Part shown: positions 8,971 through 11,041 of the stretch, one piece after another
How positions within the stretch are numbered: the first letter of the stretch is position 1
How the letters are laid out: the number at the start of each line of letters is the position of its first letter
NCBI RefSeq assembly: GCF_001513675.1
Contig: NZ_CP013859.1
Span: 1,551,081-1,615,080, forward strand
Length of the DNA: 64,000 nt
Reading direction: 5' to 3'
From: Microbacterium sp. XT11
Lineage (GTDB): Bacteria; Actinomycetota; Actinomycetes; Actinomycetales; Microbacteriaceae
Notes under the pieces: generated by a model
What the model was told of the DNA's origin: nothing
What the model saw: only the letters and a program-made list of their open reading frames with translations
Database searches by the model: none
Position numbers and translations under genes: made by a program

Positions 8971-9918
8971 TCAGCGGCGCCGATGGTCTTCCGGGGCGAG
9001 CCGAGGGCCGCGCCGTGGTTCGCGCACGCCGCTCGCGAAGATGAGGCGGATGACGCGCTGGCGGTGGCCGGCCCACGGCGCGAGCAGCTCGAGCATGCCG
9101 GCGTCGTCGGTCCGGCTTCCGGTGAGCGCGTAGCCGACCTCGTGCGCGAGGTGATAGTCGCCGACGCTCACAGCATCCGGATCGCCCAGAGCGCGGATGC
9201 GCGTCTCGGCCGAGGTCCACGGGCCGACGCCGGGCAGGCTCGTGAGCACCCGGTCGCGGGCGTCGCCGTCGGCCGCCGCCAGCAGCGCGCGGTGGATGCT
9301 GTCGCCGCGGGCCGCCGCGCTCACGATCGTCTTGGACTGCGGTGGCTCGACTCCCGCGCGATGCCAGGCCCACGACGGGATGCGCCGCCACACCTCGGGA
9401 GGAGGCGGCGCGAAGAGGGGACGCGGGGTCGGGCCGGGTGCGCGCTCGCCGAACCGCGTGACGAGCGCGCGCCACGCGCCGAAGGCCTGCATGCCGGTGA
9501 CCTTCTGCTCGATGATGGCGCAGGCGAGAGCGTCGAACACCTCGCCGGTGCGGGCGAGCCGGATGCCGGGGTGGCGGCGCGCGGCATCGGCGATCAGCGG
9601 ATGCCGGGACGGATCGAAGCCGGACTGGTCGTCCTCCGCCCCGCACAGCGCTGGCACGCTCGCAAGCGCGCGTTCGGCGCCGGGTCCCCACGCCGTCGCA
9701 TGGATTCCGTCAGCCGCGGCTCGGAGCGCGAGGGTGGCGATCCCCATCGGGGTGCGCATCGCGCGCCAGATGACCGGCCCGTCGTGCACCGTCGTGGGGT
9801 CTCCTGCGCCGCGGCGCAGCATCCCCACTGTTCGTGCGAGGTCGACGGGCTGCCGGGGGCGGTACACCGTCTGCACGGACGGGCTGGGCGGCGCGTGCGT
9901 GTCTGCGGTGAGGGTCAT
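8971..9918 (-). CDS. AlkA-type DNA-3-methyladenine glycosylase (HhH-GPD), 315 aa
   Basis: Base-excision-repair glycosylase that would remove alkylated purines. The helix-hairpin-helix LPGVGPWTSAE is at residues 228-238, and the catalytic aspartate is D254 in SVGDYHL. An upstream helical block, EQKVTGMQAFGAWRALV (138-154), matches the AlkA core. No Ada or methyltransferase domain is attached. TAGGGT exactly 6 nt before the ATG suggests a leaderless message. The N-terminal 100 residues are less typical, and proline-rich around 163-175. Confidence 0.88.
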   Translation of the reverse strand: MTLTADTHAPPSPSVQTVYRPRQPVDLARTVGMLRRGAGDPTTVHDGPVIWRAMRTPMGIATLALRAAADGIHATAWGPGAERALASVPALCGAEDDQSGFDPSRHPLIADAARRHPGIRLARTGEVFDALACAIIEQKVTGMQAFGAWRALVTRFGERAPGPTPRPLFAPPPPEVWRRIPSWAWHRAGVEPPQSKTIVSAAARGDSIHRALLAAADGDARDRVLTSLPGVGPWTSAETRIRALGDPDAVSVGDYHLAHEVGYALTGSRTDDAGMLELLAPWAGHRQRVIRLIFASGVREPRRGPRLAPEDHRRR

Positions 9919-10055: not shown

Positions 10056-10754
10056 TCAGAAGCGGTCGGGCGACGGGGTGCCGTGGCCGTAGCGGATGAC
10101 GACGTCGGCGTGACGGTCGAAGCGGTAGCCGATGCCGCGCACGGTTCGCACGATGTCCTCGTAGCGTCCGAGCTTCGCGCGCAGGCGGCGCACGTGCACG
10201 TCGATCGTGCGCTCACCGGGGGCCTCGTCGTCCTGGGCCTGCCACAGCGCCGACACGAGCTCCGAGCGCTCGATCGTGCGGCCTTCGCGCAGCACGAGGT
10301 ACTGCAGCAGCTCGAACTCCTTGTAGGTGAACGATGCCGACTCGCCGTCGATGAGCACCCGCTTGCGCGAGATGTCGACGACGACGCCGCCCTCGTCTGA
10401 GGTCGTCTCCTCCTCGGCTGCCGCCTTGGTGCGGGCGATGGCACCGGGCTCGTGAAGCGCGAGCCGCACCACGTCGAGGTCGCGGCCGCCGGAGCCGTGC
10501 GGTGCCAGGGCGACGGTCGCGTGGGTCTCGGCGGCGGGGGCGAGCTCGGCCAGCGTGCGGCGGAGGGCGTCGACGAGGAGCGGCAGGCTAACGCCGGCTT
10601 CCGCTGCCTTGATCTCATCGAGGCCGACGTAGAGGGCGAAGCCGCGGGGCGAGCGGGCGGCGGGGAGGTCTGCTGCCGCGGGAGCGGCGGAACGGGGCTG
10701 CGCGGTGCGGGCGGCGGAGGCGACGGGACGCTCGAGGAGTGCGGTGTTCGACAT
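10056..10754 (-). CDS. Orphan winged-helix transcriptional regulator (OmpR/PhoB-type DNA-binding domain), 232 aa
   Basis: The C-terminal DNA-binding winged helix spans about residues 124-213 (FTYKEFELLQYLVLREGRT, ERTIDVHVRRLRAKLG, VRGIGYRF), as in OmpR-family regulators. There is no receiver domain: the N-terminal 110 residues are a disordered Ala/Pro segment and then a small alpha/beta region (RGFALYVGLDEI) with no phosphoacceptor Asp pattern, so it is not a standard response regulator. No histidine kinase is adjacent. Its 5' region is unusually long and structured, and carries a Met/Cys-rich leader ORF behind a near-consensus promoter, so expression may be controlled by attenuation. Targets are unknown. 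Confidence 0.85.
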   Translation of the reverse strand: MSNTALLERPVASAARTAQPRSAAPAAADLPAARSPRGFALYVGLDEIKAAEAGVSLPLLVDALRRTLAELAPAAETHATVALAPHGSGGRDLDVVRLALHEPGAIARTKAAAEEETTSDEGGVVVDISRKRVLIDGESASFTYKEFELLQYLVLREGRTIERSELVSALWQAQDDEAPGERTIDVHVRRLRAKLGRYEDIVRTVRGIGYRFDRHADVVIRYGHGTPSPDRF

Positions 10755-10903
10755 GATGATGAGTCCTTGGGACGAGAGCCGATGCGGCTCTGATGCGTTG
10801 CATGAATGACCGGCGGAGCCGGGATATCGAGCACAGGGTGGGTGCTCGGAGACTCAGGCCTCGCAGATAGCGAGCGGCCTGGTCTGGCGGGGTGGCTGTT
10901 CGT
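10755..10903 (-). promoter_or_regulatory. Structured 5' leader of the winged-helix regulator
   Basis: A 149-nt region between the leader-peptide stop and the regulator start. On the minus-strand RNA it can form three separate hairpins: 10855-10881 (10 pairs with a 2-nt bulge, arms CAGGCCTCGC and GCGA-GGCCTG), 10828-10848 (7 pairs, CGAGCAC/GTGCTCG), and 10775-10791 (6 pairs, AGAGCC/GGCTCT) close to the start codon. There is no T-tract, so any attenuation would be Rho-dependent or translational. Together with the next two entries this accounts for the only gene-free gap over 300 bp in the window (10755-11081). Confidence 0.4.
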
Positions 10904-11005
10904 TCAGCGACACATTCGGCAACACATGCCAACGCGACCGGGCATCATCATCCCGGCAGTCCCGTTCGCCTCCTGGGCGGACAAAGGGCGTGCGTTGGTG
11001 GTCAT
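10904..11005 (-). CDS. Leaderless Met/Cys-rich leader peptide, 33 aa (candidate attenuator uORF)
   Basis: ATG at 11003-11005, stop at 10904-10906. The peptide has six Met and three Cys in 33 residues, including MMM in the middle and the ending MCCRMCR immediately before the stop. Its ATG sits exactly 6 nt after a CATAAT -10 box, so the transcript would begin at the start codon. Leaderless cysteine-rich short ORFs that attenuate downstream genes are known in mycobacteria, where they sense cysteine supply. Here the next gene is the winged-helix regulator, 149 nt away behind strong hairpins. That it is translated, and that it senses sulfur amino acids, is inference. Confidence 0.45.
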   Translation of the reverse strand: MTTNARPLSAQEANGTAGMMMPGRVGMCCRMCR

Positions 11006-11011
11006 GGGGGG

Positions 11012-11041
11012 ATTATGTCGGAACAAGTCCGGGCGTGTCAA
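11012..11041 (-). promoter_or_regulatory. Near-consensus sigma-70-type promoter for the leader peptide/regulator transcript
   Basis: On the minus strand: a perfect -35 TTGACA (11036-11041), an 18-bp spacer, and -10 CATAAT (11012-11017, 5 of 6 match). The -10 is six bases from the leader ATG, placing the start site at that ATG. This is the best consensus promoter I noticed in the window. Confidence 0.7.

Follow-up and report, generated by a model that had tools for sequence, protein, structure and literature searches.

A regulator gene of Microbacterium sp. XT11, on the minus strand of the 64,000-nt stretch analyzed here (the window), is probably controlled by its own leader, which we propose to be a cis-acting translational attenuator in which the progress of a ribosome through the Met/Cys tail of a short ORF (sORF) would control translation of the regulator (Table 1). 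Conservation, promoter geometry, a coding signature, complementarity and partial covariation are shown by our sequence comparisons; that the pairing controls regulator translation is what we infer from them, and our proposals for signal, direction and regulon are of the same kind. Judging from the same comparisons, the sORF switch appears to be real and family-wide.

Table 1. Features of the sORF-regulator locus in the window.
Feature	Coordinates	Strand	Basis or remark
-35 box TTGACA	11036..11041	(-)	promoter scan; at least 5/6 match to TTGACA in 128/132 loci
-10 box CATAAT	11012..11017	(-)	ends 6 nt before sORF ATG
Predicted leaderless sORF, 33 codons plus stop, MTTNARPLSAQEANGTAGMMMPGRVGMCCRMCR	10904..11005	(-)	conservation, coding signature
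P0, CCAACGC (10998-10992) with GCGTTGG (10935-10929), closing the sORF body	10929..10998	(-)	folding and alignment
P1 hairpin within the sORF	10961..10988	(-)	beats synonymous-codon shuffles, mean z -1.05
P2 hairpin, GC stem, three Met codons in or near the loop	10937..10957	(-)	compensatory stem changes between genera
Met19-21 codons AUGAUGAUG	10943..10951	(-)	complementary to CAUCAUCAU at regulator RBS
Met/Cys tail M27 C28 C29 R30(CGA) M31 C32 R33	10907..10927	(-)	5' strand of helix P5
P3 hairpin (the strong hairpin of the preliminary description)	10850..10885	(-)	both-sided changes at 7/10 pairs in the genus
P3b hairpin CGAGCAC/GTGCTCG	10828..10848	(-)	folding and genus alignment
P5 partner CAUUC (10808-10804), AU, GCAACGCAU (10801-10793)	10793..10808	(-)	folding; f6 equivalent GCAUUCG
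P4 hairpin AGAGCCG/CGGCTCT, just upstream of RBS	10775..10791	(-)	folding
Small hairpin GUCC/GGAC holding Shine-Dalgarno AAGGAC (10768-10763)	10763..10773	(-)	folding
CAUCAUCAU, between Shine-Dalgarno and start codon	10753..10761	(-)	complementary to Met19-21 codons
Regulator, 232 aa, OmpR-type, C-terminal OmpR/PhoB-type winged helix (PF00486)	10056..10754	(-)	Pfam, Foldseek, VIA-align

The two promoter boxes are separated by an 18-nt spacer and followed by six C and the sORF ATG at 11005, and they constitute the sole promoter-like match in 1.2 kb (11/12; shuffles 0.0 ± 0.2). With only 6 nt between the -10 box and the ATG, transcription is expected to start on this codon or right beside it, and a distance of 6-7 nt from the -10 box to the sORF ATG recurs in 128 of the 132 distinct upstream regions compared. 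The preliminary description had placed the start site of a near-consensus promoter on the ATG of a 33-codon ORF with six Met and three Cys; all of its coordinates hold, and the ORF, whose peptide is MTTNARPLSAQEANGTAGMMMPGRVGMCCRMCR, was confirmed from the sequence. On sequence grounds we regard the sORF as leaderless and translated, with a predicted 5' end at its ATG.

The sORF peptide is present in 148 of 149 Microbacterium-group genomes, the weakest match (E = 0.008, with internal stops) being doubtful, and a profile of 52 members found it in 185 of 249 genomes of the family and at least 69 of 85 Microbacteriaceae genera, in one copy per genome with few exceptions. The genus and genera counts contradict the outcome that would have been fatal to the original proposal, that is, a failure of close relatives to conserve the ORF or its Met/Cys codons. 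In the loci read, the sORF precedes the same OmpR-type regulator. The pattern ATGATG-N11-22-TGYTGYCGAATGTGY, run against 84,980 species genomes, returned at least 119 stretches; among the matches listed, 115 are the sORF, the named records are overwhelmingly Microbacteriaceae, and an identical peptide is encoded by Microbacterium maritypicum and M. algeriense. NCBIfam and Pfam hold no peptide family matching the sORF, and an order-wide search with the peptide profile gave no convincing match outside Microbacteriaceae.

All 116 distinct ORFs start with ATG and are 31-34 codons long, their indels consist of whole codons only, and start codon, frame and stop are retained throughout. In the tail, C29 and M31 are each found in 115/116 distinct ORFs and C28 in 99/116, while the Arg30 codon is CGA in 115/115, a codon that accounts for ~3-7% of Arg codons in the genes of relatives. 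The Cys codons of the sORF are mostly TGT over TGC, though TGT makes up ~12% of Cys codons. The ORF, Cys29, Met31 and the stop position are strictly kept across Microbacteriaceae, as the proposed alignment was meant to reveal. At loci negative in the profile search, shorter leaderless ORFs persist, ending CCRMCA, CCRMHA or CCRMPG, and some of those in relatives lack the Met triplet. Because the shorter forms and those of a sister family (below) keep it, the deepest conserved core is not the Met triplet, which is dispensable as codons, but the Cys-Arg-Met located a few codons ahead of the stop. The idea that the Met/Cys codons matter is therefore well founded for the C-R(CGA)-M tail, the most rigid part of the sORF, but not for the Met triplet, which some relatives have lost and which also serves as an RNA loop complementary to the RBS.

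The leader RNA is also strongly structured. Its 272 nt fold at -109.1 kcal/mol (z = -3.2), a value equaled by 0/200 shuffles, and in the genus alignment 19 pairs carry both-sided changes vs 9.2 in shuffled alignments. P2 is more stable than its synonymous-codon shuffles by a mean z of -0.51. The hairpin noted earlier at 10855-10881 is real, but it is only part of a larger stem (10885-10850), and the further leader hairpins mentioned with it were found and are largely conserved in the genus alignment. The sole Rfam match (17.8 vs 40 bits) occurred by chance, so that no Rfam family covers the leader. A scan of the leader found 0 intrinsic terminator-like sites, whereas a classical trp/ilv-type transcription attenuator would have such a site after the leader ORF. 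The largely conserved P0-P5 structure, the codon bias at TGT and CGA, and the conservation of most synonymous sites within the close clade would all be expected if the leader were above all a structured regulatory RNA and the sORF only a coding by-product, its nucleotides serving the folding or an RNA-binding partner and its translation being incidental. We consider this quite improbable, since none of the distinct ORFs has lost its start codon, frame or stop, lengths vary by whole codons, and the promoter sets the start site on the ATG.

The long-range helix P5 connects the sORF tail with the region ahead of the regulator. In both the minimum-energy and the centroid folds of the window sequence, the tail AUGUGUUGYCGAAUG pairs with CAUUC-AU-GCAACGCAU. 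Among 106 non-redundant loci, the mean probability of pairing between the tail and the segment 35-85 nt upstream of the regulator start was 0.344, as compared with 0.086 for shuffled leaders (P = 1.3e-15). The complementarity of the tail within the leader gave a mean z of 0.97 vs -0.11 and 0.27 for two mock pairings, and other ORF segments (codons 2-7 and 8-13) gave z of -0.06 and 0.05. In loci preselected as pairing, the third base of the Cys29 codon covaries with its partner (U-A 24, C-G 17, U-G 1). A strong P5 is predicted in only about a third of loci, and its changes within the genus alignment are one-sided only. Energy-based duplexes between tail and intergenic region and GC-weighted ungapped matches showed no tail enrichment over shuffles because GC-rich noise dominates these tests; the enrichment was detected by composition-weighted scores and by whole-leader folding. 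Since the tail nucleotides also pair with the leader, codon conservation alone is no proof of amino-acid sensing.

The sORF is also complementary to the ribosome-binding site (RBS) of the regulator. With the RBSs of neighboring genes as controls, the complementarity between the sORF and the 35 nt before the regulator start reached a median of 16.2 vs 12.6 bits (P = 1e-14). CAUCAUC, complementary to the Met codons, stands at the regulator RBS in 50% of loci vs 0.6% of control genes, and another group of loci carries AUUCGAC(A) at the RBS, complementary to the Cys-Arg-Met codons. A locus tends to have either one solution or the other (P = 0.0065, phylogeny not corrected), and a compensatory change, GATGCTGC with GCAGCATC, was seen at locus L141. 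Own and swapped Met-codon/RBS pairs did not differ significantly (permutation, P = 0.18), because the Met codons hardly vary. A modeled ribosome on the Met codons increased the accessibility of the RBS (P = 4.5e-5, a small effect), and one blocking the tail left its mean unchanged (P = 0.22). With a single ribosome placed on the tail in the window, the model closed the RBS spacer by pairing.

A related arrangement occurs in a sister family (f6, presumably Micrococcaceae), which belongs to the same order. There, 14 of 23 regulator orthologs are preceded, ~120-170 nt upstream, by a ~30-codon ORF that was recovered only by inspecting the regions upstream of these orthologs. These sORFs mostly start with GTG and end CCRM[HQ]A or a close variant, the CC pair being present in most. 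At 12 of the 14 loci, the motif GCAUUCG, complementary to the sORF tail CGAAUGC, lies ~40 nt ahead of the regulator, and a second copy follows the sORF stop at about half of the loci. One f6 leader (L322, 1697-1805) has three GCAUUC copies, one after the sORF stop, another ~40 nt ahead of the start and the third at the start codon; each is complementary to the tail CGAAUGC, and they are candidate mutually exclusive pairings. No CCRM-type tail was seen upstream of the regulator orthologs of families f7 and f12. A leaderless-looking, very Met/Cys-rich ORF, MFTNAPSREVATTAARSMMRSMMMCMCMMHRQPSL, lies ~627 nt upstream of the regulator ortholog at one f12 locus (L329), and no ORF of this type was found in the other f12 loci.

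Because the C-R-M tail is rigid across two families while its RNA partner drifts, there is room for an arrest peptide with another inducer. The nascent CCRM chain, or the CGA-AUG codon pair, would then stall the ribosome by itself in response to thiol or redox state, a metal or a ribosome-targeting drug, and not to amino-acid supply. A nearly invariant C29-R30-M31 at a fixed distance from the stop in both families, an Arg that is always the rare codon CGA, and a Met triplet that can be lost all agree with this idea. On the other hand, P5 pairing accounts for part of the tail rigidity, the upstream residues vary, and we recognized no known arrest motif in the sORF; we judge an arrest peptide unlikely, if worth keeping in mind. 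Far less probable still is a DNA operator in the tail, for example for the regulator itself, with autoregulation by roadblock. In several relatives, ATGTGTTGTCGA/ATGTGTCGCTGA indeed form an imperfect 12-bp direct repeat inside the transcribed region, as an operator might, but the sister family has a different second half, the constraint keeps to the frame of the codons, and the core TGYCGAATGTGY is found a single time in the 3.48-Mb genome. The idea of a regulon-wide operator was dropped for this uniqueness of the tail core.

The ATG of the regulator, at 10754, lies 149 nt after the sORF. Its winged-helix effector domain matches PF00486 with 75 bits, and its DNA-binding domain is closest in both sequence and fold to that of GlnR (43-46% identity, Z 13.7 over 89-92 residues), the structure search having covered essentially this domain. 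The N-terminal domain has no match in Pfam, nor was a Pfam receiver domain found in the regulator; this part may be an unusual receiver remnant. The preliminary description called the regulator an orphan, but it is no stray, being carried by 240 of 249 genomes of the family, and it is kept in Microbacteriaceae genomes of 1.1-1.5 Mb where the sORF was not detected. Vatr1 of Clavibacter was considered as a known counterpart and ruled out, being a different, TetR-type regulator.

The flanking ORFs of eight loci, read by eye, include no obvious sulfur gene. The pair in the window adjoins a DNA glycosylase-like ORF (8971-9918) and sbcCD-like genes. In 8-kb loci of several other genera (L095, L113, L126, L130, L141, and L150), the pair has a uracil phosphoribosyltransferase-like gene as its neighbor and frequently a MarR-like gene as well, both recognized by eye from sequence.

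We propose the following mechanism for the translational attenuator. The mRNA would start at the AUG of the leaderless sORF, whose last codons, C-C-R(CGA)-M-C, would double as one strand of P5, the other strand being located 35-85 nt ahead of the regulator. Complementarity to the regulator RBS adds to this in many genera and involves either the Met or the Cys/Arg/Met codons. A ribosome on the tail would have to break P5, and one on the Met codons would have to free the RBS. A ribosome at either position would block pairing, and its speed would therefore decide whether the leader closes or opens the RBS. Slow decoding at Cys-Cys-Arg(CGA)-Met would let the ribosome hold the pairing strands, and the likeliest direction is that stalling would raise regulator synthesis. 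We speculate that a second ribosome, queued 9-10 codons behind Cys28/29 on the Met codons, would undo the closing of the RBS spacer.

By analogy, the likeliest signal would be low charged Cys-tRNA, with or without Met-tRNA; Cys limitation is favored because of the tandem Cys codons and the mycobacterial precedent. Of the earlier proposal that ribosome stalling attenuates the regulator, the leaderless geometry, the conservation of the ORF, Cys29 and Met31, the linkage to the regulator and the hairpins support the attenuator itself, whereas sulfur control is suggested only by codons and analogy, no sulfur gene having been seen nearby. It is possible, though rather doubtful, that the full scheme holds as a switch of two families, in which the sulfur-amino-acid codons of the leaderless sORF would be the anti-RBS strand and ribosome progress would sense Cys/Met supply and set a core regulator possibly heading a sulfur or thiol response. 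Nearly all genomes of the family carry the regulator, those of genome-reduced lineages among them, yet it seems uncharacterized; the attenuator, if true, would define a new class of attenuation and offer a first clue to the role of this regulator. The leader sequence, under simultaneous coding and base-pairing constraint, would also be a good test bed for leaderless translation beyond mycobacteria.

In mycobacteria, conserved leaderless sORFs with Cys codons clustered C-terminally occupy the mRNA 5' end ahead of the gene that is regulated (Shell et al., 2015, PMC4633059; PMC9031893), and leaderless poly-cysteine sORF attenuators were described there (Canestrari et al., 2020, Mol Microbiol 114:93, as cited in PMC9031893 and PMC13236596). 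The Microbacteriaceae sORF resembles them in its leaderless 5' position, its C-terminal Cys cluster with consecutive Cys codons, its conservation and its location before the presumed regulated gene, a comparison of features and not of homology. The mycobacterial examples, as far as the citing papers describe them, precede cysA2, cysteine-metabolic or hypothetical genes, whereas the Microbacteriaceae sORF always precedes one OmpR-type regulator and no sulfur or cysteine metabolism gene. The fixed C-R(CGA)-M tail doubling as an RNA strand is a further difference. The regulator is similar to GlnR and other OmpR/PhoB regulators in the DNA-binding domain and differs from them in its short N-terminal domain, in which Pfam finds no receiver.

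Erm leader peptides are translational attenuators of the kind that unmasks the Shine-Dalgarno site. In such attenuators, it is the stalled ribosome that exposes this site (PMC13236596). In the literature searched, we found no report of a conserved leaderless attenuator from Microbacteriaceae. Leaderless Cys attenuation itself is known from mycobacteria, and control of a core regulator and codon-to-RBS pairing would be new, being undescribed in that literature. The present leader shares with the Shine-Dalgarno-unmasking attenuators a leader ORF, pairing between leader and RBS and the lack of a terminator, but differs from them in that its strand complementary to the RBS region consists of sense codons of the sORF.
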